The notes under the pieces: generated by a model
Seen by the model: the letters and a program-made list of their open reading frames with translations, nothing else
Told to the model about the DNA's origin: nothing
Database searches by the model: none
Made by a program: the position numbers and the translations under genes
Assembly (NCBI GenBank): GCA_905221605.1
Contig: CAJNDS010002850.1
Location: forward strand, 178,739 to 242,738
Length of the DNA stretch: 64,000 bases
Source of the DNA: Symbiodinium natans
Taxonomy: Eukaryota; Sar; Dinophyceae; Suessiales; Symbiodiniaceae
Direction of reading: 5' to 3'
Shown: in pieces, positions 18,838 to 63,247 of the stretch
Position numbering within the stretch: position 1 is the first letter of the stretch
Layout of the letters: each line of letters opens with the position of its first letter

Positions 18838-18882
18838 ACCCTAAACCCTAAACCCTAAAACCTAAACCCTCAATCCTAAACC

Positions 18883-18956
<74 letters not shown>

Positions 18957-26862: not shown

Positions 26863-26933
26863 TAGGTCCTCGCACAGACACGGTGGTGACAAGACGCTGT
26901 GGATCGTTTCTTTATGTTCAAGCGTACCACATC

Positions 26934-42200: not shown

Positions 42201-42279
42201 TTAATCGTTGTCAAGGAAAGACAACCGACACTCAATGGCGAAAGGATGTTGCAAGTCAGACTCCCTAGGGGGGATGAAA

Positions 42280-43862
42280 GATGTGCATATGCCCCATGGT
42301 GGTCAGCCAGTGGGGACTTAACTGCAAGAACAATCCAGGCAAGACCGGCCCCGGGCACTCCATGGTGGTCAGCCAGTGGAGTAGCTCCGAGCACAGGGTT
42401 CACCAGTCAACCTGGCGCACAAGTGCCCACCCTCAAAGGTGCCCGCGCACGGCCAGAGGGGGGGCGAGAGTAGCAGCAGCTACCGATTACCTGGCTCACA
42501 AGAGCCCACCCTCAGAGGTGCCCGCGCACGGTCAGAGGGGGGGCGAGAGTAGCAGCAGCCACCGATTCCACGGGGAGAGTCCACAGCGAGTTACCAAACC
42601 CTTAACGCCACAGGGTTTATAATGACACCGAGGGACCTCCCAGTCCAGGCATCTCGCATCAGGTCCCTCCAAACCCAAACCCGCGAGGTACGTCGGTAAG
42701 GAGATGGGAGGGCTCACATCGCATCATGCAGCCACCGATGCGAGTACATTCAGCACCAGCCAAGGCCGTTCACGAGAAGGTTCACAAGTCCGCCATCACA
42801 GGTGGAGCAAAGTCGTGCCTTAGCACGGAACGTTGTAGGTGTCAACCTTCGTGTTCCGGAGTATAAAGGTGCCCCATGGTGGTCAGCCAGTGGGGACTTA
42901 ACGGCAAGAACAAAGGGGTAGGACCAGCCCAGAGTACTCCATGGTGGTCAGCCAGTGGAGCCTCTCCGAGCACAAGGCGCAACGTTCTTTTGACTCACAA
43001 GAGCTCGTCCGCCGGCCAAAGCAGGCTTGACTGCTTCGTTCCAATCAGAGCCATCAGGTAAACCAAAGTAGGCGGGGACCCCACCTGCCTCGCAGGAAGC
43101 GGGAGAGTCCCCCAGTCGAAACTTCGCGGTTCAATACCCAGAATCAGACCGTCCATGCCCAAACTGACATACGTCGGCGAGGAGATGTGAGGGCTCACAT
43201 CACGCTTGGCCACCTGAGGTAGTCCTGTATGGCTGCTTTGACGCAAGCAGAGATAGACACCAAGCAGGCAGGGAACCCCGTAGCAACCCAAGCACAGGCG
43301 AGAATGGCTCTCGTGAAGGCCAGGTTGTCCACAGGTGCTCGATGGCACATTGCCAGGGAAGTGGAAACCTGATCTCCGCATAGGAGTGCCCACAACCCGG
43401 AAGCAGCATCCCCTAGCTGGTCTCTCCCAATAGGCATGACGTCGTTGTACGCCAAGGGGGTGTCACCTTCCAGACGAGGGGTGGTCAACACTCTAGTCCG
43501 AGGGGTTCACACTCGGTCGTAGCACATAGAAGCAGGCAACCTGCCCACCTAGAGGGGGCAGAGGAAAGGAAGATTGGCCGCTTTACCGATGACAGAGCTG
43601 GAACATCCAGGCAGGACCGGTCCAGGGCAGTCCGTGGCAGATGGCCAGTGGAGCAACCACGAAAGAAAGGCCCCCCGTCACCATAGGCTCACCGCAGGGC
43701 CGACACAGAAGGGTGTTCACAGGTGCAGGCAGTGAGCACACAGAAGACAAGCACGATCCAATCCGTGGCATAGACCACGAGAGGGTTGCCAAACCAAGAA
43801 TATCCCTAGGTAGTCTTGCGGCATGTATCGGCGAGGAGATGTGAGGGCTCACATCACGCTAG
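42280..43862. repeat. Complex repeat region at the 3' side of the large coding block
   Basis: CATGGTGGTCAGCCAGTGG occurs four times (about 42,295, 42,362, 42,873 and 42,941), with a diverged form near 43,630. GTGCCCGCGCACGG followed by AGAGGGGGGGCGAGAG is tandemly duplicated at 42,438-42,560. A ~35-bp unit ending in a palindrome, TACGTCGGCGAGGA then GATGTGAGGGCTCACATC, ends three blocks: palindromes at 42,703-42,720 (one change), 43,184-43,201 and 43,838-43,855. Frames in this region are not convincing. Confidence 0.7.
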
Positions 43863-43934
43863 GCAGCATGCCATGAAAGGACTCAATGGCGCGTTCATGG
43901 CGTGCGTAGGAGCCCTCAGATGACAGCTTGCTGT

Positions 43935-46604
43935 CTATTGCCAGGAGCCATCCCAGTCCGGACGCCGGGAGCGATGGCCATCTGAGGTGGTATGGGAACG
44001 CGTACGGCTGGGCATGACCTGCATTGGAGGCAGCTCTTGCTCATCAACCCCCCACTCAGGGATGCCGTCCGGAATGGGGATACCTCTGTATCTTGTCATT
44101 GAGGTTTGGGCCGCGAGCCACATCACCCGGACAGCTTCCTGGATTTGCCTGTACTGCACAACACCTTCGTCCTTATACTGAAAGGGGAAGGAGGTAACTG
44201 CCGCACGCAGGGCCGAAGGATCAGGGTCCTTGGAGGTGCCATGGCAGTACATCTTAAACCAGAAGCTGTTGAGTCGCTGCTTGGTTGGGTGTTTAGCTCG
44301 CATGAGCCCCTTAATGGCAGCCCAGTGGGCAGTGGCTGCGTCATACCACTCATTTCGGGGACGTTTTGGCCCATGCTTGGTGGGTGTGGTGCTGATCCCT
44401 TTCCAATGCGCATCGAAGATGACTGGCAGTCGGAAAGGGGCTGAGACATCCACTTCTCGCAAAGCTGCAAGGTCAGTGGTTCGCAGCTCCGAGAAGCGCC
44501 AATCATTCACCTGTGCCTCGGGTTCGTCCTCCGCATCCGACATGTCATCCATCGGGCAGGGAGAACCTTCGTTAGTTTCGGAAGAGATGCTGACGACCTC
44601 CGGCGAGGCTGCTGCAGTGTTCACTTCCACAGGCGCAGCCAAGGGCGAGGAGAGCAAGCACTCTAGGGGCAACACTCGCCGTAGAAAAACAGCCATTCTG
44701 TGAGAAGTGTCAGGCCATTCCAAGTTATAAACTGACCAAAAGTGTTCAATGTGTTGGTTGGCCACCGAGGCCGCAAGGGCAAGCCGGATGGCGTCAAGGA
44801 AATGGGCAGGGGGGAGGTCCGGCCTAAATTCTTGATAGTGCCTTTGCCCAAGTGTCTCTGTGCCCTGCAGCGTGATGCCTAGGAACGTATTCAGGTTGGG
44901 CTGGGCAAGCCTGGCCTTTTCCACGTCCGTGTGCTTAGCAGCTGCGGCCCATGCCTGCAAGGCTTCTTGGGAGGCTTGGCCAGTGACTTGTGGCAGTCCA
45001 CTGTGCGCGTCCATCACATATTTGGTAGTAGGGCACTTGGGACACCGATAAGCGCGGCCAGCTAAGAAGGCCACCATGGCTGCGGGCGGCACATTGATCT
45101 GCAGGTCAGTAATTTTATTGTCAGATTCAGGAAAACCAATAACAATGGGCAGCCCGGCCGTTCGCTCCAGGGGACCTTTTTGGTGGGACTCGAATGCGAG
45201 CAGAAGTGCACCCAGCCAATAATCTGGGTCAGCGTAGCTGAGCATTGCAGGAAAACTGGCATTGATGACACTCGGCAAGTCCGACACCGCAGAGAAAAGA
45301 TCCGCGATGTACTGCGCTGTGGTAAGAAAGCCATACCCCACCAGGGACTCCGAAAGCCTTGCTTTGTCCAGCTGCGGGACCGGGCAATCCAACATTACAG
45401 CAAGGTCGAAATGCTGCAACGCCCCCGACAGTCTAAGACACTGCGTGATGATAGGGTCATAAACCTTCAAATACGCCGCCGGAAACGTTTCAGGCAGATG
45501 CAGTAGCGTGTCAGCGATTCCGATCAGCATCTCCGAGTCTTGCAGCTGGTTCGGTATGCCGTTCAAAAACACCTCATAGGCCCTATATGCCCGAAGCTGC
45601 TGGCAGTGTGTTGTGAGGTGTTGCGAGTCACGCAGGCTCATGTAGGGCCGAGGTTTGACATTCTTACCAAAGTGATGTCCCGCTGCAAGTGCGCGCCACA
45701 TGAGATCACAGACCGAGTCTGTGTTGCTCTGCATGATGGGTGCACAGGCTGGGGCGCTGGGGTCGCGGGTGCCGCTGGGCTCGCTAGGCCCTCGAGGCTT
45801 GGCTTTTGGTGGTTCCAGATGCTGAGAGCCGTCTTTGTCCAAAACGAGAGGCCGACTTTCCTTGCGAGCTTGGACAGCGGTGGGAGACTTAGCGCAAGGG
45901 GGCTGTGATGCCTCAACCGTCCTAATCCCCTCCGGAAATGTTGCGTGCGTGGGCCGTGTCCGGGGGCTGGGTGGACGTCGTACGCCAGGCGGCGGGTCCC
46001 TAATGTTGCCTCCACTACGGGGTGGACACGAGGCGGCGCTACTCCCTCCGATCCTGTGAGCAGCTTCACTAGAGGGAGTCGTCACACAAGCATCCAGAGC
46101 ACTAGGACTCACGGCCGTCACAACCGCAGGCTCTTTCGTTGCAGGCTCCTTCTTCCGTGGTCCTCTCTCCCGCGTTGGGGTGCCGCAGGGTGTTCGGGAA
46201 ACGTCCCGTTTAGCTGCCGGAGGTGGGCTGACAGCTGCCGCAATGGAGCCCCCCGCGGCCCGAGGCTTGAGCCATGGTGTACCCCACCGCTCACCATGGC
46301 GCGCGTTGGTGATAGCCTCGCTTTGGGCTGGTGACTGCAGCGGCGTAAGAACCTCGACTGCAGTAGCAGCTACCACGTCGGGACTGTGACTACCCGCGGG
46401 CACAGGGCTGTTTCCCGGAGAGTCCACATCAATCGCAGTTTCGGAGGCAGCCTTACCCGTACGAACAGGTAGGAGGTGAAGACCGCGGGGGGCTCGCATT
46501 ATGCCGGCCTTGTGTTCGAAAGCCGGGTCAGCGCGTTGAGCAGATCCCCGCTTGGGCGGCATCCTAATGCTGGTATCCCCTAGCAAGGTACTGGGCGACC
46601 CCAT
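43935..46604 (-). CDS. Large protein of unknown function (~875-889 aa), tightly coupled to the helicase
   Basis: A single intronless frame. ATGs occur at 46,604 and 46,562; the second (MPPKRGSAQR) begins one base after the upstream helicase stop (46,566-46,564) and is the more natural start. Residues 1-300 are Pro/Ser/Ala/Arg-rich and probably disordered. About 300-670 is an ordered all-alpha-looking domain (ADPDYWLGALLLAFESHQKG) containing CPKC (about residue 519), possibly half of a zinc site. A Ser/Asp/Glu-rich acidic linker follows near 690, then an ordered, Trp-rich end (residues 700-850) and a basic tail. No enzyme motif is recognised. Position suggests a partner of the helicase in the same element. 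Confidence 0.7.
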   Translation of the reverse strand: MGSPSTLLGDTSIRMPPKRGSAQRADPAFEHKAGIMRAPRGLHLLPVRTGKAASETAIDVDSPGNSPVPAGSHSPDVVAATAVEVLTPLQSPAQSEAITNARHGERWGTPWLKPRAAGGSIAAAVSPPPAAKRDVSRTPCGTPTRERGPRKKEPATKEPAVVTAVSPSALDACVTTPSSEAAHRIGGSSAASCPPRSGGNIRDPPPGVRRPPSPRTRPTHATFPEGIRTVEASQPPCAKSPTAVQARKESRPLVLDKDGSQHLEPPKAKPRGPSEPSGTRDPSAPACAPIMQSNTDSVCDLMWRALAAGHHFGKNVKPRPYMSLRDSQHLTTHCQQLRAYRAYEVFLNGIPNQLQDSEMLIGIADTLLHLPETFPAAYLKVYDPIITQCLRLSGALQHFDLAVMLDCPVPQLDKARLSESLVGYGFLTTAQYIADLFSAVSDLPSVINASFPAMLSYADPDYWLGALLLAFESHQKGPLERTAGLPIVIGFPESDNKITDLQINVPPAAMVAFLAGRAYRCPKCPTTKYVMDAHSGLPQVTGQASQEALQAWAAAAKHTDVEKARLAQPNLNTFLGITLQGTETLGQRHYQEFRPDLPPAHFLDAIRLALAASVANQHIEHFWSVYNLEWPDTSHRMAVFLRRVLPLECLLSSPLAAPVEVNTAAASPEVVSISSETNEGSPCPMDDMSDAEDEPEAQVNDWRFSELRTTDLAALREVDVSAPFRLPVIFDAHWKGISTTPTKHGPKRPRNEWYDAATAHWAAIKGLMRAKHPTKQRLNSFWFKMYCHGTSKDPDPSALRAAVTSFPFQYKDEGVVQYRQIQEAVRVMWLAAQTSMTRYRGIPIPDGIPEWGVDEQELPPMQVMPSRTRSHTTSDGHRSRRPDWDGSWQ

Positions 46605-47277
46605 CTCCTTCCCTCACCGGCTGGAAGGGGACACAATACACAGCATTGGGCAAGGGCTCCAGGACGAAGCCGCGCGTTTGCAGACTAGCAATGGTGCCCG
46701 AGTAGGAGTTGGAGGTGAAAGAGGGGCTCCCCCATCCTTCTTGCTTAAGTGTGCGGTAAAGAACTTCCCGCTTATCTCCCCAGGTGGCCTTCAAGGCCCA
46801 CGCTTGATGCAGGGGTGGGGCTTCAAAGAGGTCCAGCCCTACTTTGCGTTCCGCAGGCAGCACGATGCTGGCTACTGTCCGTTCTCGGAAGGCTTGCTTG
46901 TGTAATGCCTTTGCAACGCCAGGGCCATCCATGCTCCACAAGCTGGCTTGTGTGCGCACATATTCCGCGCATTCAATCAGGCCTCCGGTTGCGCAGGCCG
47001 CCATTTGGAAGCATGCACCTATACCATCAGAGTAGTGCGGTGCCACGAAAACCAAAGCCCCAAGTCCTCTCGTGAAGGAGGAGGTGGCTCGGGCAAACCC
47101 TGCCTCGCTACTAAACAGGAATCCAGAAGCCCGACAAGTCACAAAGACACCTATCCCAAATGTGGGGCCAGTGGAGCAAGCCGTGGTGATAGCGCCGAAG
47201 AAGCGTTTAAGGGACCCTATGTGATTCATGAGGAAGGTCCGAAACGTCACAAGGCTCCAAGTGGTGGGGCGCGCCAG
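46564..47277 (-). CDS. C-terminal part of the SF1 helicase, in +1 frame
   Basis: This frame opens after a TGA at 47,280-47,278 and overlaps the end of the upstream helicase frame by about 70 bases. No ATG fits as a start. It carries what the upstream frame lacks: a motif V-like strand (GIGVFVTCRASGFLF) and a motif VI-like segment EAGFARATSSFTRGLG followed by strand ALVFVAP, equivalent to the NVALTRA..GL..VG region of UPF1-like helicases. A ~130-residue tail follows. It therefore completes the helicase, through a small intron, a +1 frameshift, a sequencing error or a pseudogene lesion. It ends with TAG at 46,564, one base before the next ATG. Confidence 0.55.
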   Translation of the reverse strand: MARPTTWSLVTFRTFLMNHIGSLKRFFGAITTACSTGPTFGIGVFVTCRASGFLFSSEAGFARATSSFTRGLGALVFVAPHYSDGIGACFQMAACATGGLIECAEYVRTQASLWSMDGPGVAKALHKQAFRERTVASIVLPAERKVGLDLFEAPPLHQAWALKATWGDKREVLYRTLKQEGWGSPSFTSNSYSGTIASLQTRGFVLEPLPNAVYCVPFQPVREGDGVAQYLARGYQH

Positions 47278-50200
47278 TCAGCGGGAAATCTTCCGCGGTT
47301 TGGCAGGCTTCAAGTAGGCTCATATCGTCATCGCCCAGTGGGTCTGCGGGGAGACTCGACTGCAGCATAAACTTCATTTGAGTAACAATCCTGGCATACT
47401 GAGAGACCATCCCGATAGGGGAGTCATGATATACCTGGTGCCCAAAAGTGAGCACAATGTCCGCCAGGACCATGCTGAGGTCGTAGCTTCTGCCTAGTTT
47501 GGTTTGGGTCTCATCCTGATCTGGCACCCGTACCCATCGGCACGTTTCCATCCACCTGCCTGCAAAGCTACGCAGTGGCCGCCCGAGCAGGTGCTGCATC
47601 GTGGGACCTGGTGGCATAAGTAGCCGAGGGACCCCGCCTGTCAGATCGAAGCGGCACGCCTCCGAGTACCGACATGCGTATAGAATGGCAGCAATCTCAG
47701 GAGGGAGGCGCATGGATGAACAGAGCGAGAGGTTGATAGCCGGTCCGACAATGGCCTTCAGCCCGGCGGCCTGCATGACTGTCTCGGCTTGCTTCGGTTT
47801 GACGATGCTCATACAGAGAATCGAATCCAGCATCGAGACCGCTGAGAACAACACTTCAGACGCTCCAGAGGAACGGTGGGGCTTGCCCCAAGAGGGCATC
47901 TCGCCTTGCCCCTTTTTCCACGGGCCGGAACTTTGGGCCGTTTGCCGCAAAAGGGCCGCAGGCAAGGTGGCTGGCGTGTGGAGGTCGGCAGGGACCGCAT
48001 TGAGACCACAAATCTTTTGCTCCAACAACTCCGTGACGAAGTGGTAATTGGGCCGCGATCCTCCAGCGGGCTGTCTGTGGTCGCCAATCATGACATCGAG
48101 TGCATGCTTGATGTGCGCCAGGATGGTGTTGGAACCCGGTGTGCCCAATTGCTGGGCTTCATCTCGGAGGAGCAACTCAACATCCTTTAGACGGTTAATG
48201 AGCTGCGAGTAGGGAAAGCTAAGCCTTGCCACAATCGTACCATGCGTCGTGGCTACAAGTAGCCCCCGGTACAAATCGTGCACATCAAAGGGGAGCTTAT
48301 GTGTGTCCTTCTCCTTGTTACCCGGTATGCGAACGATGCGGCTGCGAACAAATTCATTGCTAGCAGTCGTGAGCCTATCAACCGCTTCGACATAGGTCCG
48401 AACCGATTCATTGCCATGAGCGGTGTACAGGGTGAGCCGGTTCGTCAGGCACGCAAGAAGAACTCCTAGAAACGCGCAGGATCGTGTCTTCCCGCTGCCA
48501 GGCGCCCCCGTTATGAATACAGAAGTACGATTAGCGGCCAGGCCGTACGAGCACGCTCCCAGCAGCGCTGCCAGGTGTCCATCCGCCCCCCAAAAGGTAT
48601 CACAGAGGCAAGTAAGGAAGGCGGGACCAACTGCGAGCGCAAAGATGCTGGCGCGAGTCCTCGGATCGTGCTCGTTACTCAACGAGTCCTGGGACAGGCG
48701 TAGACACTCCGCATGCCACAGCGCAGGAGTCCGGGCGTCCTCCTGGCCGGGCAGCGGAGAGTCAGGCAACGTGGCTAACACGCCACTCAGCAGCGTCGGC
48801 GTCCATTCTTTGCGATAGGTTTGTTCCTCCGCAAGCCAAAGGTTAAGGAAGCTTTGCAAGGTGTTGGAAGCCCACGGACCCGCAGTAGGCGATGCCTGCG
48901 CAGCTTGCGTTGCATGCTTGCCTCTGAAGACTTGGCAGACCTCCGGGTGAATGAGCTGTGCCCATGTGTCGTGCCAGTTCCCTCTCACCACCAGCCCGAT
49001 AATGAGGACAAGCACTAGATCTGTGAGAAAGTCCGGCAACCAATGTGGCTGCCGGATGGCATCAAGAGGCGAGTCTTCTAGCGGAACGCCCAATGCAACA
49101 TGTTGCCTTTCCCTAGGCATGTGTAACAGAGCATCCCAAAGCGGGGTAGAGGCTCCTCCGGGCAGAACTTCAAGCTGGCTGACTCTCGGCAATGAGGGTC
49201 GTTGCGCGAATTGGTTGTGCTGTTCATCAGTCAAGAGCAGGGCAATGGTTATATTGACTGGCTGCATGGCCTTACTTTCTCCAGGGCCGGTGGAAAGCTT
49301 CTTCGGGGCAAGGAGCTCTATAAACATGCCTGGGTAGGCCACATCTCCCTTGTCTTCTCTCAAGGTAACCAGCAAAGCAGTGCCCTTGGCCGGCACTTTA
49401 CCAGCGACAGCAAACCACTTTGTAGCCCAGTCAGGGACATCCGCCAACTCCGGTGTAAGGAGCATGACCGACGCCCGTGGGTAAACTCGATGGAGAAGGC
49501 AGATTGGCCACGTATGCGTGCCGGGCTTTATCGCCACAGGGGTGGCGGCCCGCTTGACCGCAGCTTGCTCTGGGTAGTGATACTGTTCCGAGGGCTCCTC
49601 ATCGATTTCTGCTTCCGAGGCCATGGCTAAAAACTGATAACCCAGCATGTCAACCAGGCGTTCTAACGACAGGTGGGGGAGCCACATACCCAAAACAAGC
49701 TTCATCGTGGGACCAAGTTCATGATACGGGGGCGGCAAATCAGCCAGATGCGGCTTGGCATCCGTCAGGAGGACTTGGGTACAGTCAGCACGGAGACTTG
49801 CAATGCTCCGGTTCTCAGCGGAAGGTATCCGGAGAAAAGCCTCCAGATCGGGGCGTTTGATTTGCCGTCCCAGCACGGAGTTGATGAAGGTTTTAGACTT
49901 ATCCGAAAGCTGGACAGAGCCACACGCAACCCCCATCAAACCTGCCCGCACTGTGCGATCCATCCGGGGGTCGGCCAAGCCACAAATGTTTTTAGTCAAT
50001 TCCTTATGCACATAATCCCCCGGCGTGAGCTGGAAGAGCTCTTCACTTTGGACAACGTGACCATAAGAGTGTCCACCACTGCCAAGTGACTCAGGTCCAG
50101 TGAAATAGTAGAGACGCGCTCCCGCGCCAATCGCTTGCGTCCTTGCTGCCTGGCTGGGCCGGAAGATACAAAGCTGGTCGCTCTCATGATGGACAAGACT

Positions 50201-50614
50201 AACAGCGTGCCGCAATTCCGAACCCAGGATATATTGCAGCATGGCCCGTGGCATGGCAATGCCGCCCAAACGTGCCTTGATGTGGACAAAATCGCCCTTG
50301 CAGTCAGGAAGCTTTTGGCGCTCATGCCAGGCGATAGCCACAGCAGCGCCCGTATACGACCCAGCAGAGAAACCCGTAACGCACAGTTTGCACTCGCCAG
50401 CTCTCCCCGCGGCGAGGCCCACATGCAGAGCGGTCAGCGCAGCAGTATGTGGCATGTGCAAGTGAGCTAGGGCCGGGCACATTGTCAGGGAGGCTTCTAC
50501 CGAGCTGATTCTAGCACGAACCGCCGCTGGCAGACCGCATCCTTCGACCTGAGGGTACAGAGCACGTGCCCACAGCCCAGAAGCCCGAAAGAACTCTAAA
50601 TAAGAAAACAAGCC
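47207..50614 (-). CDS. Hydrolase-like / UPF1-type SF1 helicase fusion
   Basis: A 1,134-codon frame with no intron. The first ATG is at 50,482, but the frame is protein-like from 50,614, so the N-terminus may come from an upstream exon. Residues about 70-250 (numbered from 50,611) contain CVTGFSAGSYTGAAVA, a GxSxG nucleophile-elbow motif as in alpha/beta hydrolases. A hydrophobic segment (DLVLVLIIGLVV, about 530) follows. The helicase begins with Walker A ITGAPGSGKT (about 700), motif II LLLRDEAQQ (about 815), motif III MIGDHRQPAGG (about 842), a motif IV-like SMRLPPEI (about 965) and GMVSQYARIV. UPF1-like helicases unwind RNA or DNA 5' to 3' with ATP. Motifs V and VI lie in the +1 frame just downstream. 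Confidence 0.7.
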   Translation of the reverse strand, partial: GLFSYLEFFRASGLWARALYPQVEGCGLPAAVRARISSVEASLTMCPALAHLHMPHTAALTALHVGLAAGRAGECKLCVTGFSAGSYTGAAVAIAWHERQKLPDCKGDFVHIKARLGGIAMPRAMLQYILGSELRHAVSLVHHESDQLCIFRPSQAARTQAIGAGARLYYFTGPESLGSGGHSYGHVVQSEELFQLTPGDYVHKELTKNICGLADPRMDRTVRAGLMGVACGSVQLSDKSKTFINSVLGRQIKRPDLEAFLRIPSAENRSIASLRADCTQVLLTDAKPHLADLPPPYHELGPTMKLVLGMWLPHLSLERLVDMLGYQFLAMASEAEIDEEPSEQYHYPEQAAVKRAATPVAIKPGTHTWPICLLHRVYPRASVMLLTPELADVPDWATKWFAVAGKVPAKGTALLVTLREDKGDVAYPGMFIELLAPKKLSTGPGESKAMQPVNITIALLLTDEQHNQFAQRPSLPRVSQLEVLPGGASTPLWDALLHMPRERQHVALGVPLEDSPLDAIRQPHWLPDFLTDLVLVLIIGLVVRGNWHDTWAQLIHPEVCQVFRGKHATQAAQASPTAGPWASNTLQSFLNLWLAEEQTYRKEWTPTLLSGVLATLPDSPLPGQEDARTPALWHAECLRLSQDSLSNEHDPRTRASIFALAVGPAFLTCLCDTFWGADGHLAALLGACSYGLAANRTSVFITGAPGSGKTRSCAFLGVLLACLTNRLTLYTAHGNESVRTYVEAVDRLTTASNEFVRSRIVRIPGNKEKDTHKLPFDVHDLYRGLLVATTHGTIVARLSFPYSQLINRLKDVELLLRDEAQQLGTPGSNTILAHIKHALDVMIGDHRQPAGGSRPNYHFVTELLEQKICGLNAVPADLHTPATLPAALLRQTAQSSGPWKKGQGEMPSWGKPHRSSGASEVLFSAVSMLDSILCMSIVKPKQAETVMQAAGLKAIVGPAINLSLCSSMRLPPEIAAILYACRYSEACRFDLTGGVPRLLMPPGPTMQHLLGRPLRSFAGRWMETCRWVRVPDQDETQTKLGRSYDLSMVLADIVLTFGHQVYHDSPIGMVSQYARIVTQMKFMLQSSLPADPLGDDDMSLLEACQTAEDFPLTGAPHHLEPCDVSDLPHESHRVP

Positions 50615-51429
50615 TTAAAGCAATGCCTGCAGCGGGGAAAGAAGCCTTATTCAAGGCATTAAACCCCTAATTCAAGGTAAAAGCAAGTAAATAAAGCCTT
50701 TAGGCCTTAAATTTTAAGGCAGCAAGCTTTAAAATCATGTAATGGTCGTTAATGAAGAAAGGTTTGTGCGGACCTTATTTAAAGAAGTTTTTCAAAAATA
50801 AGGAAGGTTCACCGGCATGCCCCGGCATGCAAGCAGAGATAGTGACGACGTGAGTTACTGCAACTGTTCCCAACATCTTTTCAAAAAATTGGGCATAGTT
50901 TTGTTCTCATGAATCACTGTTCATGCATCCAAATATCATTAAGGCACGACGTGGCCCGCTGCCTCTGCCAGGAGCATCTCCCCAAAAAAATGGGCATAGT
51001 TCTGTTCTCATTCAGCATGTCCGGATATTCATGAGAGCACCGAAAATATATAACCTTAAAAAAAATCATTAACATGCATGCATGACGTGTACATGTGTGA
51101 TCGATCAAAAGGGTGCAGCTGCAGCATCTCAAGATTTGATGCTTCCATGCTTGCAATTGCATCTGATCATTCGGTCAATGGTTCGCTCCATGAACCCTCG
51201 ATCGTGTTCCCGTGCCAGGCTGTGTGCACTACACAGCCTCGTGATCAAAAAACTCGATCTTACATGCGTGCACATGAGACATGAATTATTCTTATCTTAT
51301 CATGCAAAATATTATTATTATTAAGGAGCATTTCCCATGCATGCTCCTGCAGAATCTTAACCATGCATGCACATGCAGGAGCCTTTCAATAGCTCCTATC
51401 TGCAACCGATCATGATCATGCACATATTT
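50615..51429. other. A/T-rich spacer with direct repeats and a hairpin
   Basis: This non-coding spacer separates the transposase-like gene from the helicase. It holds a 100-bp-spaced direct repeat (AAAAAATTGGGCATAGTTTT at 50,884 and its relative AAAAAAATGGGCATAGTTCT at 50,984, each continuing GTTCTCAT), several CATGCATGC words, and a 9-bp inverted repeat GCTCCTGCA (51,343-51,351) / TGCAGGAGC (51,374-51,382). A run of AAGGC/CCTTA words lies at 50,640-50,720. It may hold the 3' end of one transcript and the promoter of the next. Confidence 0.5.
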
Positions 51430-52303
51430 TCACAAGCAGGGCACATCGTGCAAGGTGCTGAACTTGTCAAAAAAACTGCGGCCCAGAGCAACAGCAGAGT
51501 TTTTGCCGCCTCTTCGGGCAGCAAGCTGGGCAACTTTGCCTCCAAAGTCTTCGTCTCGGTACGTCCAGGCTCGGGAGGGACACACCGTGGCTGCATAGGT
51601 CAGCTCACAAAACATGTGGAGCTTCGGTTTGATGCGGAAAAGCTTAAGATCCATCGCAGCAGCTTGCGAGCTCAGGCTTACATAGCTCATGGCAAATTCG
51701 GCCCCTTTCGTTGCAAGTGTATACTGGTTGAAGACCTGGGGGCTGAGCTGCTCGTAGCAAGCATTGAAATATTGGGTTGCTGCCAAGAGGGTCTGCTCGA
51801 ACTCGTTGCTAGGATCCATGAGGCTCTGGCAAAGAAGCATCGCGAAGGGCACAAGGGCCCTGGATTCAGCTGCCTTCGCCCTGAGTTTTGCAAAAGGTTT
51901 CCCCTCAGGCTTCAACATGCTGGGTTTGAGCTCGCGGAGTCGACTTGTTACCTCATTGGACTCGTAGTAGGTCCGCATCTCCCGGTGCAAATTCCGGCAT
52001 CGTTCAGCAAAACTGTTGCCTGGCATGTGCTTGTCGCAGATATATTTCAAGGTGCTGCCAATAAAGTCCAAAGCTATGCCCAGGTCCGAGACATGCAGCC
52101 AATCAAGCTGAATAATTGACAGCTTAAAAAATGGACACCCCAGCAGGGGGGATTTGTCCTGCAAAGAACAAAGGGCTGACCAGTGGTTGTGTCTATTTTC
52201 GGGTCGCAACCAGAAAGCCGAGGTCGACACCTCGTGAACCCGATCTGGCACCATTGTGCAGTACCAACAGCAGCCTTTATTTTCGTTCCTTACTTAAGCT
52301 TAG
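51430..52303 (-). CDS. Transposase-like protein, C-terminal exon
   Basis: The frame is open from about 52,303 (acceptor-like AAAG|G near 52,290) to a stop at 51,430. It begins with a CxxC-type element (GCCWYCTMVPDRVHEVS). It continues with SIIQLDWLHVSDLGIALDFI, a D..H...LG signature like that of TNP2/Plavaka-type transposases, and a helical region. It ends with FRIKPKLHMFCELTYA, then WTYRDEDFGGKVAQLAARRG. The last segment is a hallmark of a multi-copy dinoflagellate family that I associate with DNA transposons. Joined to 52,431-53,705 it forms one protein. Confidence 0.52.
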
Positions 52304-52430
52304 GATTATATAACAATATATATATAATACACATATACTATATATAAGCTTGATCATAAGAAAAAACATATAGACATTCAAACAAATGCATTAGGAGGAT
52401 CGACATGATCCTCCTGGCTGCGAGCATCAA
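52304..52430 (-). other. Likely intron with (TA)n and a perfect hairpin
   Basis: It contains ATATATATAATACACATATA-like microsatellite and a 9-bp perfect inverted repeat AGGAGGATC/GATCCTCCT with a 5-base loop (52,393-52,415). No coding potential was found. Its position between two frames that read as consecutive parts of one protein suggests an intron; boundaries are not fixed. Confidence 0.4.
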
Positions 52431-53705
52431 TCAGCCAAGCCACCATGCAGGCAGGTACAATGTCTGCTTGAAGAATGCCCAGTCACCTCTGACCTGCCCC
52501 AAAATCGCTCGAGGACAGGGCTTGCCTTCAAGCCGGGCGCGCCACCCGTCTGTAGCATGCCACGGTGAGCCATCGTGTCGATGGCTGGGGAAGACACCTG
52601 CAGCAGCGAAACGAAAACTCCAGGCCACAACCTCCATGATGCAATTCCAGGTCGCGTTTTTGACCATGAGGTGCTTCTGGACGAGGCAGAGCGGGAAACG
52701 AGTGTCCGATCTAGAGCTACAGCTCAGGACATTCATCGAAAGGACTTCCACCACTTGGGTTCGGTCCCTGTTTAAAGGGGTTCCATCACCCCAGAGGCCC
52801 ACGGAAATGACATCCTCTGCGCCAACCTGAAGGAAGGCGGCAGCTCGTCGGAGGAATGCCTCTTCGTCTGCTTCCAGTGCATCTCTGTTTCGAAGACTAG
52901 CACGATCATGAGATTTCTGGTCGAGGCAATATAGGAGCTCGTGAGGGAGCCACATGATGATGTCCCCCTGTTCTTCTCTCTGCTCCTTATGATTCCACAA
53001 AGGTACTTGGAGGACGTATTGTTTGGGCCAGTGTCGATTTACCTTCATATTATTCAGCAGCTCTTTGTGTCGAGCTGTGCTGTCACTGCGTCTCGCACCA
53101 ACACGAGCAAGATGATCGACGTGAGCACTGCCACTGGCCTCAGCATCACGAAACAAACGACCAGTCTCTGCTGCAGAGATGGCATTGTTCAGGAACAAAT
53201 TCCCCAACCTTTTTCCGAGTCGTCTCTTCGGGTCGACATGGCTCAAATGAATTTGAGATCTTTTGTTGGAATTCATAGCAGCTGCATATATATATACTCT
53301 ATCATGCAGTGCACGGTCGATCAGTCGCATTGAAAGACAAGAACACGGAGTCCATGGATCCAAAAGCGGGCACCCTCCTTTTTGTTCTGCACTGCACACC
53401 CTCGATCCAAAAACATGTATACACGAATGCCCGGCCCGAGCAGTACTATAGGAGTCGATCATCGAAATGGAGCCGATTCTGCCAGCAGCATCCTGGCGGA
53501 CGATCGACTCCTTCCTGCAGATCTTACAATTCTCAGGAAGACGGGCCTTGTCGATACCATCGATGTTCTCGAGGGCGAAGTCGTCTCCAGATCCTTCGAC
53601 ATGATTGAAATCACTGTGGATCATCGTATGTGCATCATGATATGTTAACATGTAGCAGCAAATGTTTTGCAAAGCTCTTTCCAAAAAGCAGAGCTGGCGA
53701 TTCAT
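52431..53705 (-). CDS. Transposase-like protein, N-terminal exon(s)
   Basis: An ATG at 53,705 opens a 424-codon frame. The first ~140 residues contain CKIC and Cys-rich pieces; the conserved part starts around SQIHLSHVDPKRRLGKRLG. Further motifs are WPKQYVLQVPLW, WLPHELLYCL, VGLWGDGTPLNRDRTQVVEV (a candidate first catalytic aspartate in GDGTP) and RGDWAFFKQTLYLPAW, which leads into the CxxC of the next exon. I infer a DDE-type DNA transposase of a dinoflagellate-enriched family, not proven. The start lies only 15 bases past the end of the methyltransferase frame, so the two may share a transcript. Confidence 0.52.
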   Translation of the reverse strand: MNRQLCFLERALQNICCYMLTYHDAHTMIHSDFNHVEGSGDDFALENIDGIDKARLPENCKICRKESIVRQDAAGRIGSISMIDSYSTARAGHSCIHVFGSRVCSAEQKGGCPLLDPWTPCSCLSMRLIDRALHDRVYIYAAAMNSNKRSQIHLSHVDPKRRLGKRLGNLFLNNAISAAETGRLFRDAEASGSAHVDHLARVGARRSDSTARHKELLNNMKVNRHWPKQYVLQVPLWNHKEQREEQGDIIMWLPHELLYCLDQKSHDRASLRNRDALEADEEAFLRRAAAFLQVGAEDVISVGLWGDGTPLNRDRTQVVEVLSMNVLSCSSRSDTRFPLCLVQKHLMVKNATWNCIMEVVAWSFRFAAAGVFPSHRHDGSPWHATDGWRARLEGKPCPRAILGQVRGDWAFFKQTLYLPAWWLG

Positions 53706-53720
53706 ATGTATGTGCCGTAT

Positions 53721-56700
53721 TTACAGCTCCAAAATGGCTTTGGCCTTCTTCTGAATCCTTTGGGCAGCATCCTGGTGCACTGCACCCTCAGAAATGCATT
53801 CGGCCACCTGAGCCTTGAGCTCTTCGGTGACGTCAGTAACAGAGCACCAGGCATGCAGCTTACTGCGAATTTGACCCAACCATGTGTCGAGCTCGGTGAG
53901 AGCAGTCTGCAAATACGTCTGGACATCCTCTTTTTTGTGTTTGGCCCTGGCCAGCAAATCCTTCAAGACGATCTCCAGCTTCTCAAGCTTGCCCTTGCCC
54001 GACATGAGCACCCCGACCTGATTCTTGAACAATTTTCTTTTCCTTTCAACATGGCCGAATGTAGCTCCAGCAATATGATGGCAGCAACAATCACGTATTC
54101 CGAAGATCTGCTGAATGAAGTCCTGGTGGACGGGCTTCATAGACCCAGCATTTTCAAGGAAGATGTGCACGCACTGAAGGATACTGGGTTCAATGCTTTG
54201 GAATGCAAGCAAAATTGCGTATAAGACAAGCATGTGTTGCGAGCGGTCTCCCAGAAGTCCTAATCCACCTGAGCTGGACCCTGCAACCGTGAGATCTTGG
54301 CAGGGGGAACCGGCGGGAATGATGATGGCTGTTTTTTGTGGATGAATCCTTCCCAGGAAAGACAAACATTCACGCAGCAATCGGTAATCCTCTTTAAGTA
54401 GAGTCCAAACGTCATCGATTGCGATCGATGGCACACGATGCGAGTCAAGAGCCCATCTTTGGCTTTTGTCATAGTCATACTTATGGCATATGAGGGCGCG
54501 AAGGACGCTGTCACTTTCTGCACTTACAGCCGCAACAGGTTGTTGCTTGAGGCATTCAACGGTGACAGCACGTGATATTCCGCATCCATCAAAAAGCGAT
54601 AAGATGATGTAACGTTCAACACCGAGTGCGACCTGTATGCAGTCTTCCGACGAGACAGCATTAATTTGATTGTTCCTGCTTCCAATTTTACCGTCTTTTC
54701 TCTTGGAGACAGGCTTGGCATTGTTAAGCTTATCGAGGCTTTTCTTGACTCTTCGCATCTGAGAATCAGAGCTCAAGTCGGACTTGGCTTTAAGGGGCTG
54801 GCTGCCCCTATCAGAGCCATTCTTCTCAGAGTTCAGCGCAGTTTGAACTTCATGTTGTTGCGGTCTCTGTTCCTCATCGGAATCAGTAGCAATGGAGTGC
54901 ACTTCAGGAAGAGATGCACTATCAAGTTGTGTTGCCAAAGCAGTACTAGGGTCGGGTTGGAGACTAACACTGGCTTGGTGTTCTGACTCCTCATCGAATT
55001 TGCCCTTTTGGGCGAGAGTAAATTCAGTACCGCTTTTACATTCCTGTGCTTGTGGCAGAAGATGGACACAGGCCGGATTAGGCAAGCCAAAATCGTCCTC
55101 TGAGGTGATGGTCATATAGGTTGCAGAAGGGACAGGGCTGTCCCAGCTTGCAACCTTCATTATCTTAGCTTGCTCAATAGTGAGTGCTTCACTACTTATA
55201 TGCTGTTCTGCGTTTTCACTGGGATCAGCATGATGCCGGATAATCTCATTAAAAGAGTTAATGAGAGCAGTGGCGGGGTAAAGCTGATTGACACAAGCAC
55301 TTCTGATGAAGATGGCTTCGATGTAGTGCTCAGCCTTAATCAATTGTGCCCACAAGTTTTCTTTACGGACTCCATAGATTGAGTCATAAAGAAGAATTGA
55401 GTCTCCTGCTTGTTCTTTGGCATGGTGTAGCACTAAGTAGTGCTTAGCACTAGGATCATGCAGAACGAGTGCAACGACAATATATGCCTGTTGCATGACT
55501 GATACCGTACTGCCAAGAAAGCTTTGGATGTCCGCCTCGCTTTTGCAGACTTGCGCAAAAGAGCTTTTCTGAGTCTTCTGTGTGAGAAGGCAGAAGAAAG
55601 ACGGGAGTCTTTGAATGGCAAGTTTGCACGTGTCATTGCGAGGGCTCAAGTTTTGCTGCATGCACGCAATCGCAAGATCAGCAAGTTGACCTAGATCAGC
55701 GAGGATACTGATCTGATCAGAGGAGTCCTGTTCAGAATGCAACGGCAGAGCAAGAATGGGGTGTGGCTGCTGGCACATGGAGCACTTGCAGTGGATCTGG
55801 ACAAGCATGGTGTATTGCTCCTTGGCCGGAATAGCCCACATGGCCTTACTATACACCTCAGTAAAGCTCTGAAGCTCCAACGGTGTAGCACTTGCCAATT
55901 GAAGATAGGTCAGACCAAGTATGTGTGCAAGCTTGGCTCGAGCGGCCTCACGTATATTATATCCAACCGCAGCAAGGACAAGAGCTGCTTGTTTAGGAAA
56001 GGGGGCGTAATGCTGGCATTGCTCTTTGTTCCATTGAGCACACGAGATGACCCGATAAGCAGCAGCAACAGGGCAATAAAGGCCAGCAATGCGCCTTTGC
56101 ACTTCTTCTTGAACGTTGGCCGGGACTTCCGCCTGAAACCTTAAGACAGTATTACGTCTTCTAGCAATCTCAACTTTTTCTTTGCTACTCTCAATATTTC
56201 TTTTGCCAGTCCCACCTTCTTGACTCAACTGTGCTGAGGCAGGATTTTCCGGTAACATGTTGGCAGCCGTATCATCACCTTTAACAGCAGGAGGCTTTCC
56301 ATGGAGCAAAGTCGGGCGCTGGGCAGTATCCGATTGCTCCATGGCAACCTTGCTTGACTTCCCATCCTGATGATTGGCACATCTGGCTTTGTTCGGCTTA
56401 TTGGCTGCAGTAGCCTTAAGTCTATCATCAGTGCGGATGTTAAAAGCATAGATGACGCTAGTATTAATCCCTATCAACTTGATGATATCACATGAGTGAC
56501 ATCGTGGCAGGAATAGAAGCGCGCCCTGATGTAGGGAGACGAGAACATTGTTACTCGCAGAAGATCCCGGGTGACAAGCGAGATGTTGGCCGTTCTTGAG
56601 AACTAGCGGGATTTCTAGTTCAGTCTTACCAGTAATGCGGACAAGCAGGTACTGGATAGATCCAAGTTCAGCAGTAAAGTCTTCATCCTCTTGGGAAGCC

Positions 56701-58247
56701 TTAGGAAGGTTTTCTGGCAATCTCCAACCTTGAAAGGCTTCATTTTGGCTGAGAAACGTCTGGACACTCTGCAGCTTCACTAGTTCGGGAACATCCTCAC
56801 ATTTACCAGTCATAACAACGTAAGGTGCCTGTCTGTCGATGATCAGGAAATGTGTTTCAAGGTCATCCTTGTGCCAAATTGTACTAGCAATTCGTTGCTT
56901 GGACAAGGGGTGATACTCATCCCTTGCTCTGACGTGGATCAATCTTCCTTGCCCAATCTTATCGCTCCCAGAGTGGCAATTCAAAAAATGTTCTCTAGGG
57001 TTCTCGGAAATGTGATTAATGGGTTTGTTGCTCCATCTTGGGGCATCAACAACCTCTTGCAGCAATTGCACTTCAGTTCTTCCACAAGGAAGGTCGAAAT
57101 ATTGACATTGAACGAGCGCATCGGCAGCGGCGACAGTAGCAGTTACATGGACAGCAGGTATGACAACATCAGTGCCAGCTAATACATGTACGATTCCTCT
57201 GTATTGCACCGGAATTTTGATGTACTCGAGATCCTGAATAATGTCTTGCATGTCTCCGGTGCAATTGTGAAAGGTGATCTGCAGAGAGACCTCTGTAGAG
57301 TTGAAAGGTTGAGTCACCTTCCAAGCAAAGATTTCCTGTGAGTTCTTCACATTGCAAATGTGAAATCTTGCGGCATGCAACGCGAGGCTGTCAGGGATGG
57401 TAAGCTGCTTTTGCCGAAGACCCAGGATAGCCTTCTGAAGCTGATAGGGGTCCGCAAAGATTCTCAGATACTTTCCAGGAGCAGTGTGGAACGCATTCAT
57501 AAGCCTGTGCTGATTGAGAATGCAATGCACTTGAAAGGCTTCATCCTTAGTTCGGGCAGAGTTGATAGCATACGGAAGGTCAACGAAGTTGACACTATTG
57601 CCCGGCATCCCTTCAAGAGGCGCAAAGCGATACCAGACCTGGAGCTCAATTTGTGATTTGCCTTCAGTTTGTTTGAGCACCTTATCATACATCTCTTCAA
57701 CCTTCAGCATTAGAGCTTGAAGTTGACTTACGCTGATCTTAGGCGCTCTGAGGCAAACAACACATCGATTCTCCTGATCAGTTAACGCAACGATGGGCTG
57801 CTGTGGCTTCCTAATGTGAGCTAATCCAAAGTCTCGACTGAGGTGTTTAACTTCCTCGTCAAATGTTCCAACAGTGCCAGCGATGATGACTTCAGTATTG
57901 GCGGCTTCTTGCTTCATGGAAGGCGTTATGGCAATGTAGTAGCAAGTGTGATGGACAGGGTAGCTGCTGGGAATGTAAGTGACCAAGTATACAAGTTCCC
58001 GTTTGCCCTGCACTTCAATGGCACCAATAACCGTCAAGCTGTGGATTTGACGAAGGAAGTCTTCATCATAACTCCTGAAGAGTACACATGGGATGTCTGA
58101 TATGGAAAGTGAGCTGTGCAAATTACTCACGATCGTTATACTCGTCTGTTGTGTAAGACCCCTCCTTAGATTGTGAAGGAAATTCTTACTAGGGTTGACG
58201 AGTAAGATAGATTGGAGCTCTGAGCCCTGCACTTGGCGCAATTCTTA
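53721..58247 (-). CDS. Multidomain protein with C-terminal Dnmt3-like DNA C5-methyltransferase
   Basis: An open frame of about 1,506 codons with no ATG at its 5' edge; a spliced first exon upstream is likely. Residues 1-600 are ordered but unrecognised. A Ser/Lys-rich linker (about 630-690) follows. About 900-980 contains AKHYLVLHH..LLYDSIYG, resembling the His and Asp parts of Ulp1/C48-type cysteine proteases. After an acidic/basic linker (about 1,060-1,190) comes the methyltransferase: motif I ILSLFDGCG (about 1,210), motif IV AGSPCQDLT with the catalytic Cys (about 1,313), motif VI FLENAGSM (about 1,363) and a motif VIII-like GHVERKRKLFKNQ. The SPC-[NQ]-DL pattern is typical of Dnmt3. A basic coiled coil ends the protein; motif X was not recognised. 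Nuclear DNA methylation is inferred. Confidence 0.72.
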
Positions 58248-58410
58248 CAGTTTGTGTAGACACGATGCATCCATCTCTAAGATACTCCAGCAAATGTGTT
58301 GATGGTGTTCTGGCAAAGAGGGCATCATACTCAGTGAGATGACCCAACATAAAGTCGGCAAGACACTGAAATGTGCTTCCATCGATGTTGCTAATTCGAT
58401 CTTGCGACAT
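58228..58410 (-). CDS. Likely first exon of the methyltransferase gene
   Basis: From an ATG at 58,410 the minus-strand frame reads MSQDRISNIDGSTFQCLADF and MLGHLTEYDALFARTPSTHL with good protein character, then meets a canonical donor-like GTAAGA at 58,252-58,247 that coincides with the in-frame TAA limiting the long frame. Candidate acceptors (TATCAG, TTCAG) lie about 130-160 bases into the long frame. The joining phase was not resolved. Confidence 0.42.
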
Positions 58411-58522
58411 GGTGCAGATACCTTACGCCGAAGCTATCCGTACTGCACAGTGCGCAAGACAAATTTGCCAAAAGGTGCAAGTAAAGTAAAGAGGCTCCCA
58501 CCCTTAAGAAGTCTGCAAGAGA

Positions 58523-58745
58523 GAGAACGTGCGTTCACACTCAGCAACTTAACAAGGAAGGAGACGGGCGCTCCCAACTTCGATAAAGAAAGGGAACACA
58601 ACGTGAAAAGTAAGAGAAAGAGAACGGGCGTTCTCAATCTCAGCAAGTTGCAAGAAAGAGAAGCGTTAGAGAAAGAGAACGGGCGTTCTCAATCTCACTA
58701 GTAAAGCAAGAAAGAGAAACAAAGAGAAAGAGAACGGGCGTTCTC
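58523..58745 (+). repeat. 55-bp tandem array of the palindrome GAGAACGGGCGTTCTC
   Basis: Perfect palindromes (7-bp arms, GG centre) at 58,620-58,635, 58,675-58,690 and 58,730-58,745, spaced exactly 55 bp. Diverged copies are at 58,523-58,538 and near 58,560-58,575. Spacers are AAGAAAGAG-rich. The array lies just upstream of the methyltransferase start, as expected for binding sites of a dimeric regulator or of a transposase near an element end. Confidence 0.7.
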
Positions 58746-58776
58746 AGTCTCGAATAGTTAGAGAAAGGTGGCAGGA

Positions 58777-58794
58777 CAACTGAGGGCTCAGTTG
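58777..58794. promoter_or_regulatory. Palindrome CAACTGAGGGCTCAGTTG
   Basis: Perfect 8-bp arms around GG, followed by ACGC. It shares the core TGAGGGCTCA and the trailing ACGC with the palindromes GATGTGAGGGCTCACATC + ACGC at 43,184 and 43,838, on the other side of the coding block. The role (terminal or protein-binding site) is inferred. Confidence 0.45.
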
Positions 58795-58799
58795 ACGCA

Positions 58800-60530
58800 A
58801 CTTTCGAGGGGGCCCCTGATTTTGAGGTTTCAGTCTGGGCGAGGACAGCACGCGCTAAGCGTCCCTCTTTGACTGAGGCAACATGAATGCAACCATTGCT
58901 GGCACGGCTGGTTCATGGCGCATTTTATGGAGCATGTTCTCGCTGACACAGTCATTGCCCTGCGCACACCTACCGCATGCCACATCTGTGTCCTATGCTT
59001 GGTCGGGCATGGGCTGAAAATCCGCTCCAGCATCAGCTGCTGCAAATGTCTCGGTCCAATCCACGCACACCCGACCTTAGTAACGAGACTATACCTGCAA
59101 AGTGCGGAACATGGCGAACAGTATGAATCACCGCATTCCACCTCAAACACATGGTTTCAGGGTAATGCCTTGTCCGACGAACAGTTCTTCAATACTCATT
59201 CCTCTACGGGACAATCCTGATCCCGATGACCTTTGTGCCCGTTTATGCACTTCCTGCCCTCTGCAGATCCTACCGCAACGCTTTCGGCGATTGGTAGTTC
59301 TGAAAATCAGGGTCACTATAAACCTCGTCCAGCTGCAATGCCTGCTACAGGGACCCACTTTGCCAACAAAAAACAGACATGTTCGAAAGCAATTCCAAGG
59401 TGCCTGAGCGACCATCAAGGCTTTATGGGTCGGCAGGCCTCACAGCTAAGCAAACTGATGACATGCAGCCCAGTATCCATCACTTGGCTTGTGTCTCACG
59501 CCGAAGCCTCCGCGCTTTCTGCCTTGCATTGACAAGCCCATGAACCCGAGTCAGCTTCTGCAAACCCTCAACATGTCGGCGGAAAGGTCCTTGAAGGTGC
59601 GTGTTGGGGTTGAACATTGTTGCTCTTCTTGGGCTTTCGACTCGACCTGTCTGCATAAAGCCTCAGGCGACTTTCAGGTTAAGACCCTCGTGTGGGGAAA
59701 GCTCCGCATTCGGGTCTCAAAGCTTTGGTGGTCTTTGGCGAACAGTTTCCTATTGCGGTTTCATGGTTTGACGAGATTGCCATGATACCGAACGGCTGCG
59801 TCATTCCCCGGCTTATAACTTGTGGTCATCTTCTAATTACAATTGGGGTTGCACTTGGACCCTTACGAGCCATGCTCCAGATTAATCCAAGGACCAAAAG
59901 GGGGCTTGGCAGCTTGGTGCTTGGCACCTACGTGCTCGCTTCGCTCGTTGCGCGTTGCAGAAACAAAACCATGCTGACAATCGAGAAAGAAAAAACGTTA
60001 ATAACCCGTCTCTCTGACCTGGCACAACGATGGCTTCGATGCAAAATCCAATCCTCGTTTCCAAAGACCTACCCGGCAACACGATAAGAAAAACTGAACC
60101 CCGGCCAAGCCCAAAGATTCCGCCTGGAAGGCGGGCTTTGGTCTACGCCTCGGAGACTTCAGGTCACTTCCGAACAGCAAAACAGCGAAGCTTCAGAGTC
60201 CACTCTGCACTCCTACTCCCATCCAAGAGCTTGCATCATTCCAAGAGCTTGCACATTTGCATGGAGCCACAATTTACGAGAGACGGGTCTTTGGCCTCCG
60301 TCGCTCCGTGTGGCAGAGGCTTGCAGTTGCATTGTTCTTTTGCTTTACCTCCTTTGTAGAACAAAGTTTAGATGGAATTCGTAGCTTTCTGGAGCCCTCA
60401 GCTCGAGAAAGCTTGCTGCAAGAACTGAAGCTTGCTGAACACTTTGTTTTTTGGCTCAAGTGCAAAGTGAAAAAGAGACTGCTGCGCGAGCTCGTTTTCA
60501 CATGGTAGCGGAGCACTGAGAGTGACTCCA
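58800..60530. other. No supported gene
   Basis: Several open frames on both strands (for example 58,915-59,220 plus; 59,692-60,087 plus) lack recognisable domains or consistent coding character. The A/T-rich part at 60,000-60,480 leads into the Copia-like remnant. Confidence 0.35.
60449..60460 (+). other. Possible relict of the dinoflagellate spliced leader 3' end
   Basis: TTTTGGCTCAAG matches the last 12 bases of the conserved dinoflagellate trans-spliced leader; the upstream bases (GTAGCCA expected) do not match. Relict leaders occur in retroposed cDNAs. A 12-base match in 64 kb has a chance probability of the order of 1%, so this is suggestive only. Confidence 0.25.
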
Positions 60531-61440: not shown

Positions 61441-61901
61441 TGTGTCTCAAATGGGAAGCCGTCTACGTGAGAGACGGTTGCATGAAATTGCATGCCCAGT
61501 GTTTGGGGCTCAAAAAGCCCATGGACATGGAGGACGAAATCGCCAAGGCGGAGATCAAGTTGAGCAACTTTCCCGAGTTGAAGCTCTCCGAAGCAGATCG
61601 CTGTTCCATCCTGCTGCAGGCCGTTTCACATCCGGTGAGACAGTATGTGGCGCTGCACGGCAACGCCAACAGCTGGAGTGAGCTCACGAAGAGCCTCAAA
61701 TACTTCGAAGAACAGCTAAGGATGTGCGACGTGCCGACTGCAGCCAATCGTGGAATGGACGGCAAGCTTTGCGACCATTGCGGCAAGCATGGTCATGTGG
61801 CAAAGAATTGCTGGTCACGACAGCGTGAGGCTGGAGAGGGCGGCAAAGGCGGCAAGGGCGGCAAAGGAGAGTCGAAGTGGAAAGGGCACCAGTGGCCCTG
61901 A
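61380..61901 (+). pseudogene. Gag C-terminal part with CCHC zinc knuckle
   Basis: The frame reads a capsid-like helical region (KAEIKLSNFPELKLSEADRC; ALHGNANSWSELTKSLKYFE) and then CDHCGKHGHVAKNC at about 61,769-61,808, a perfect C-x2-C-x4-H-x4-C zinc knuckle as in retroviral-type nucleocapsids, followed by Gly/Lys-rich repeats and a stop at 61,901. It overlaps the protease frame by about 150 bases. Confidence 0.65.
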
Positions 61902-62982: not shown

Positions 62983-63247
62983 AATGGCCCAGAAGTCTTT
63001 AGGAAAGTCTTGCTGGCATATTTTGGCATGGTTCTTGGCATGGCTTGTGGCATGTTTTGTGGTGTGTTGGCATGAGAGTTTTGTTTTCGAAGAAGGAAGG
63101 ATCGGCGCATGCGGAGCGCAGCTCTGTTTTGGGGGTTGGAAGAATGACGCGCTAGACGCGCGAGCCAAAAAGAGCAAGGAGGAGATGTTTTACCATGAAT
63201 TTCAAGGGTCCCAAGCCTTAACGCAAGGCAGCGCTGGCATGTTTGGC
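62983..63247. other. GGCATG-rich spacer after the protease frame
   Basis: Multiple TTGGCATG/TGGCATGTTT words (62,990-63,080 and 63,235-63,250) and a 48-bp-spaced imperfect repeat (GTGCTTGTGTTGGGCATGAC at 63,258; GTGCTTGTGTGTGGCATGAC at 63,306) just beyond. It may be an LTR remnant. No gene is seen. Confidence 0.4.

Follow-up and report, generated by a model that had tools for sequence, protein, structure and literature searches.

LINEs are usually shorter than 10 kb. The closest known system to the element described below is SymbioLINE-Dnmt (de Mendoza et al. 2018, PMC5890265). As described in the text of that paper, SymbioLINE-Dnmt has a methyltransferase ORF that precedes a separate reverse transcriptase ORF, an endonuclease, a reverse transcriptase and an RNase H, target-site duplications, a high copy number and no poly(A) tail, and a methyltransferase acting on new copies was proposed for it. 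SymbioDIRS-Dnmt3, another dinoflagellate retrotransposon with a methyltransferase in the same text, has a tyrosine recombinase and A-B-A-B repeats. Lepidopteran TRAS LINEs are described as carrying a virus-derived RNA helicase domain in ORF2 (PMC5563155), so the combination of a LINE with a helicase has a precedent in moths. Among the matches listed in the open-licence literature, none reported a helicase polyprotein in a methyltransferase LINE.

The window is the whole 64,000-nt stretch analysed here (C2538:178739-242738), and the genome searched is the 759.4-Mb assembly of 2543 contigs that contains it. The original prediction placed all large frames of a mobile element in this region on the minus strand. 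Five such frames were re-found between 43935 and 58241: 889 aa (43935-46604), 1134 aa (47207-50611), 274 aa (51430-52254), 424 aa (52431-53705) and 1506 aa (53721-58241). A 228-aa frame (46564-47250, minus strand) and a 250-aa frame (51367-52119, plus strand) also lie inside the block. None of the minus-strand frames is an intact gene of the giant element or of the transposon nested in it. The most likely reading of the block is a damaged single copy of a LINE-type retrotransposon of giant size, running on the minus strand from 58808 to 41848, and much of the middle of this copy has most likely been lost. We consider it probable that this non-LTR element inserted once here, with its 5' end almost complete, and was damaged later. 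For the wider proposal of a non-LTR retrotransposon of ~30-32 kb, moving as a single RNA with its own methyltransferase, endonuclease, reverse transcriptase, RNase H and a hydrolase-helicase polyprotein of ~3150 residues, we see the case as evenly balanced.

The ends of the window copy were fixed by comparison with other copies. The 3' end of the giant element is a poly(A) tail of 11 A on the minus strand (41848-41858, read as T on the plus strand), where homology with the copies in contigs C1874 and C1887 stops. The sequence ...CAGTCC followed by 11-12 A is common to these three copies, and the sequence after it differs in each. The 3' UTR (41859-43934, minus strand) contains a 79-bp tandem repeat and hairpins, two of them with a TGAGGGCTCA core, and is conserved in L041 and L044. 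The count of TGAGGGCTCA is 3 (0.30 expected), a value reached in 1 of 100 shuffles. The 5' UTR (58411-58808, minus strand) contains 55-bp tandem repeats (58612-58751) and a palindrome (58773-58798). It was recognized by a match to L052, in which positions 1337-2400 correspond to 57747-58808 of the window at 98%. The 5' end at 58808 is 75 nt short of that of the C1874 copy. The ends proposed earlier, 42280 and 58800, are replaced by 41848 and ~58808. A target-site duplication was sought around the window copy and none was found (score 6; chance mean 6.4 and maximum 11 in 500 draws). The missing duplication counts against the simple story for the window copy itself. Adjoining the block, two plus-strand frames (61750-62982 and 62984-64000), the first with a sub-threshold Pol_BBD match, are probably a Copia-type retrotransposon, and a 51-bp tandem array fills 63491-64000. 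Elsewhere in the window, many interstitial TTTAGGG-type arrays are found in both orientations at 749-18961, and GC-rich tandem arrays with units of GGCCCTTGGCCCGGGG and of 109 bp at 14647-16191.

ORF1 of the LINE, with the first part of a putative C5 methyltransferase, was located at 54028-58410 (minus strand) by tblastn homology to P0004 and P0005. The 1506-aa frame shows 84% identity to P0004, 97% to P0005 (a cluster of 89 member sequences), 66% to P0006 and 34% to P0007 (over 13% of the query). In the tblastn search, residues 1-56 of P0004 match 58410-58243 and the next part matches from 58244 in another frame. Because the match switches frame at 58243/58244, ORF1 has a frame change near 58243. 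Residues 1-781 of P0005 match 56342-54006; residues 782-1409 gave no tblastn match in the window at E values up to 0.01. By eye, these last 628 residues of P0005 hold the rest of the methyltransferase. The later part of the enzyme, the endonuclease and the reverse transcriptase are absent from the window copy, which does not contain all the catalytic and target-recognition parts of a C5 cytosine methyltransferase. The 1506-aa frame is a chimera: methyltransferase homology ends at 54006 at the protein level and at 54026-54028 at the DNA level, and the remainder is the transposon's own frame. Three things underlie the name putative C5 methyltransferase: motifs recognized by eye, the literature and a PF00145 match below threshold, which came from one distant relative only (P0007, 34% identity). 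The motifs and the P0007 match do not establish the label 'Dnmt3-like' used in the original prediction.

The putative helicase is found downstream of the methyltransferase on the same strand. The part of the polyprotein at 47207-50576 (minus strand) includes a GxSxG stretch and lacks its N-terminal side; homology with C1874 and C1887 ends at 50576, which is the nested transposon's own end. A continuation in another frame (46564-47277, minus strand) is motif V/VI-like by eye, and the same residues follow the helicase in P0010 and P0017. The '889-residue protein' (43935-46604, minus strand) is the C-terminal part of the polyprotein. In C1887, the helicase, the 46564-47277 stretch and the 889-aa part form one 3149-aa frame. 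The helicase and the 889-residue protein, taken earlier for separate proteins, are pieces of one frame that is broken by a frame change in the window. The 1134-aa frame gave weak AAA matches, all below the Pfam cut-offs; together with motifs seen by eye, they suggest a helicase, and the putative SF1/UPF1 type comes from the motifs. A 'YWDDG' in the polyprotein was inspected as a possible reverse transcriptase motif and, by eye, dismissed. Visual inspection alone hinted at glycosyltransferase-like and Ulp-protease-like stretches, for which no claim is made. A 73% similar stretch is present near the start and in the 3' UTR of the helicase part (L039:8179-8465 and L044:3679-3966). Neither Pfam nor NCBIfam assigned the methyltransferase frame, the transposase-like gene or the 889-aa part to a family at scores above cut-off. 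Sequence searches of the PDB were uninformative, two AlphaFold models were unusable (mean pLDDT 26.6 and 30.9), and viral contigs searched with P0007 and P0010 gave no matches.

A genome search with the 1134-aa query (41 of 971 candidates scored) returned 44 rows, mostly 95-98% identical, with open frames of up to 3149 aa. The helicase dN/dS is low, with a median of 0.22 over 231 pairs from 22 sequences (pairs not independent). The median dS is 0.015, and 0.069 for the window against the others. The set consisted of the window and 21 of the 30 fetched helicase loci, all with a length of exactly 3324 and free of stops; the loci not used were L009, which is the window itself, and L010, L013, L016 and L034-L038. 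These values point to selection on the helicase frame and to a young age of the copies.

Between the methyltransferase and the helicase of the window lies a fragment of a foreign DNA transposon (50576-54027, minus strand) with an intact left end at 50576 and the right part lost. The left boundary is exactly common to C2266 (L045:2224) and C2204 (L046:499). Two large open stretches of a transposase-like gene were found in it, the first at 52431-53705 (from the frame listing and genome matches) and the second at 51430-52254 (by comparison with L005), both on the minus strand; in the paralogue L005 both are within one 582-aa frame. The transposase-like frame has 62 genome matches, a few at 89% identity or more and most near 25-38%. 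The last part of the chimeric 1506-aa frame (53721-54027, minus strand) is derived from the transposon, with the same residues in the transposon frame of L002 and L003. The 15-base gap, earlier placed between methyltransferase and transposase genes, separates two frames of the transposon (L002). C2266 tracks the window to 54030, where the L002 match ends, and continues with its own sequence, common to C2263. C2266 and C2263 diverge at L048:2411 and L049:2124, and the transposon span in C2266 is ~8.3 kb. In the C2263 copy (L006, L007), a 424-bp stretch is inverted compared to the window. The transposon ends are CCCAGAAG... and ...GCTTTTG with no clear inverted repeat by eye, and a possible 3-bp duplication (ACC) was seen in C2266 only. 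CMC/CACTA transposons have terminal inverted repeats starting with CACT and a 2-3 bp duplication. The motif layout of the transposase-like gene, judged by eye, resembles that of CACTA/Plavaka-type DNA transposons; the gene and two paralogues have no Pfam match above cut-off, and the transposon is not a member of this type by any test made.

The methyltransferase frame and the transposon interior join at 54006-54030, most plausibly a deletion scar. A 600-base query across this join had 75 candidates, of which 40 places were scored. The window alone spans the join; the other 39 match the LINE half only (bases 1-303 or 1-305). Since the join is found only here among the scored places, the proposed linkage of the methyltransferase to a DNA transposase is refuted: the transposase is part of another element, whose own boundary lies at 50576. 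The original prediction that one mobile element unites the methyltransferase, the DNA transposase and the helicase fits their adjacency on one strand in the window. Its full form receives almost no credence from us, as the join is restricted to the window among the 40 places, no match to the methyltransferase LINE was seen in the transposon loci that were aligned to the window (L002-L004, L006, L007, L045-L047), and C1874 and C2504, where read, have no match to the transposon. The alternative split into two nested elements (43.9-50.6 and 51.4-58.8 kb) fails as well, the outer parts being most likely one element with the transposon between them. The transposon may have inserted into the helicase frame after the giant element itself had inserted. 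A deletion would then have fused the methyltransferase to the transposon interior and removed the rest of ORF1, ORF2, the middle region and the start of the polyprotein. The lesson for annotation is that a tidy methyltransferase/transposase gene pair can be a deletion scar.

What the window copy has lost is seen in C2504, where the order is methyltransferase, endonuclease-like part, reverse transcriptase, RNase H, ~6 kb and helicase part. The P0005 match (23484-27710, one TAG inside) is followed by L051:985-5727 with RVT_1. Pfam matches to RVT_1 (6.5e-13) and RVT_3 (7.1e-11) are above cut-off; Exo_endo_phos (E 6.1e-4, 20 bits vs a cut-off of 24.5) and RNase_H (19.7 vs 25.8) are below. No domain was found in the three frames scanned in the ~6 kb before the helicase part. 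C2504 and C1874 are colinear at 98-99% from the ORF1 end through the helicase part, with ~2.7 kb of ORF2 missing and ~1.7 kb extra at the start of the helicase part in C1874. The C1874 copy extends from C1874:325262 (5' end) to 354762 (3' end), 29,501 bp with the methyltransferase LINE, the helicase-like polyprotein and poly(A) in this order. It was read except for bases 326401-334000 (7.6 kb). A methyltransferase match at 329817-330119 lies inside this stretch, and its spacing is exactly that found in the window (3417 bases, 57747 to 54330). The target-site duplication GCCGTAAAAATTGAAAAG is present just before the 5' end and again directly after the poly(A) 29.5 kb away. The flanking match is 25 bp (24/25), of which 18 bp are beyond the A-run. 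Its local score is 22; none of the first 105 of the 110 neighbouring stretches scores above 9. A duplication bracketing the whole C1874 copy is the mark of one target-primed insertion; both outer ends were tested for this one composite copy.

The methyltransferase and the helicase recur together in the genome. Helicase places with a methyltransferase upstream on the same strand within 40 kb number 9 of 41, compared to 0.05 expected under a uniform spread. The 41 places derive from the 44 rows after second pieces at C1024, C2042 and C1646 were dropped and the window's own was kept; the methyltransferase places are 46 after the results of the P0005 query and of the 600-base query across the join were merged, with the window's own left out. 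The P0005 query gave 34 rows (33 of 266 candidates scored). C1874 and C302 have an identical methyltransferase-helicase distance of 15,952 bp. The helicase place in C47, one of the nine, has a methyltransferase downstream as well as upstream, and in C114 and C454 the methyltransferase is on the opposite strand within 40 kb. In C1745, C1935 and C2194, the two are 27.5-28.2 kb apart vs 16-18.5 kb at four others, perhaps a longer form of the element. The prediction of a methyltransferase-bearing mobile element with a putative UPF1-type helicase is supported by this recurrence with order and strand preserved, and by C1874, where one target-site duplication encloses the whole. The expected recurrence of the genes as a group held for methyltransferase and helicase, and failed for the transposase, which among the 40 scored places is joined to the methyltransferase in the window only. 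The block could instead be a nest of repeats, assembled as chance neighbours or by segmental duplication. The transposon is indeed foreign, repeats may cluster in this genome, and the window copy is without a detected duplication; the count of 9/41 against 0.05, the duplication bracketing the whole 29.5 kb in C1874, and the different post-poly(A) sequences in C1874, C1887 and the window make this explanation very improbable. The LINE and the helicase unit as unrelated neighbours had also been considered, and this was dropped after the gene order and colinearity of C2504 and the reading of C1874.

Alternatively, the LINE reverse transcriptase could mobilize in trans a 13-kb helicase element that is distinct from the LINE and has its own poly(A), with an occasional template jump from the 5' end of the helicase RNA to the LINE RNA that gives same-strand composites with the LINE upstream. 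The LINE/helicase junction is CTGTAWTGTCATGC, and the best support for a jump comes from C1887, where the helicase part is alone as a 13-kb unit beginning exactly at this junction, as an independent element would; the 11 kb that were read upstream of it do not match the LINE. The C1887 unit has no target-site duplication that the search could find. A Copia-type reverse transcriptase (L042:5853-9005; RVT_2, E 5.1e-25) is located ~2.4 kb upstream of this helicase-only copy. No reverse transcriptase was found by Pfam in the 3149-aa frame, and a jump, too, would give a single bracketing duplication. The first-look candidates were more numerous for the helicase query (971) than for the methyltransferase query (266), although ordinary 5' truncation would likewise leave more 3' sequences. 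Against a jump, C2504 (CATTCCTGTAATGTCA) and C1874 (CATTCCTGTATTGTCA) have the same junction, alike at 15/16 bases, and the spacing in C302 is identical to that in C1874. The composite thus seems to be copied as a unit, and template jumping is in our judgement possible and rather unlikely.

The preferred reading remains one giant LINE-type element. Both its size and its set of genes would be unusual for an element of the LINE type. Its order would be a 5' UTR with repeats; ORF1, with a C5 methyltransferase and, after it, an APE-type endonuclease; ORF2, with the reverse transcriptase and RNase H; ~6 kb in which no domain is recognised; a hydrolase-helicase-like polyprotein of ~3150 residues; a 3' UTR and poly(A). 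It would most likely move as a single RNA by target-primed reverse transcription, in which DNA is nicked by the endonuclease and the reverse transcriptase starts copying the RNA at its poly(A) end, leaving target-site duplications. Possible roles are methylation of the new copy for the methyltransferase and, for the helicase, unwinding of the very long RNA or of the RNA-DNA hybrid.

Compared to SymbioLINE-Dnmt as described in PMC5890265, the giant element shares the methyltransferase ORF placed before a separate reverse transcriptase ORF (present in C2504, lost in the window copy), the likeness to endonuclease, reverse transcriptase and RNase H (RVT_1/RVT_3 above and Exo_endo_phos and RNase_H below cut-off) and the high copy number. 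Of the duplications known from that system, one of 18 bp was found at C1874 and none at the window or C1887. It differs in the 11-12 A at the common 3' end of three copies and in a further ~13 kb with the helicase-like polyprotein and poly(A); the word helicase has no occurrence in the main text of PMC5890265. Because SymbioLINE-Dnmt is described as without poly(A), the giant element is treated as a variant and is not counted as a member. The likeness to SymbioDIRS-Dnmt3 of the same source is the methyltransferase in a dinoflagellate retrotransposon; here the methyltransferase and the reverse transcriptase are in different frames, and neither a tyrosine recombinase nor A-B-A-B repeats were seen in the sequence read. 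No phage integrase domain was found in the scanned subset of frames and the 3' end is poly(A), so the features of SymbioDIRS-Dnmt3 were not seen in this element. From the TRAS LINEs, as described in PMC5563155, it differs in having the helicase in a separate long downstream frame with a hydrolase-like part, in a dinoflagellate; the helicases are compared by description only.

If this reading is true, the element is a LINE several times the usual length that carries its own epigenetic and RNA-unwinding tools. A LINE-type unit of 29.5 kb with one duplication would test the limits of target-primed reverse transcription, and whether the helicase permits such a LINE length. The Symbiodinium LINEs with a methyltransferase published so far would be extended to a larger element, and such a unit would bear on the growth and heavy methylation of dinoflagellate genomes.
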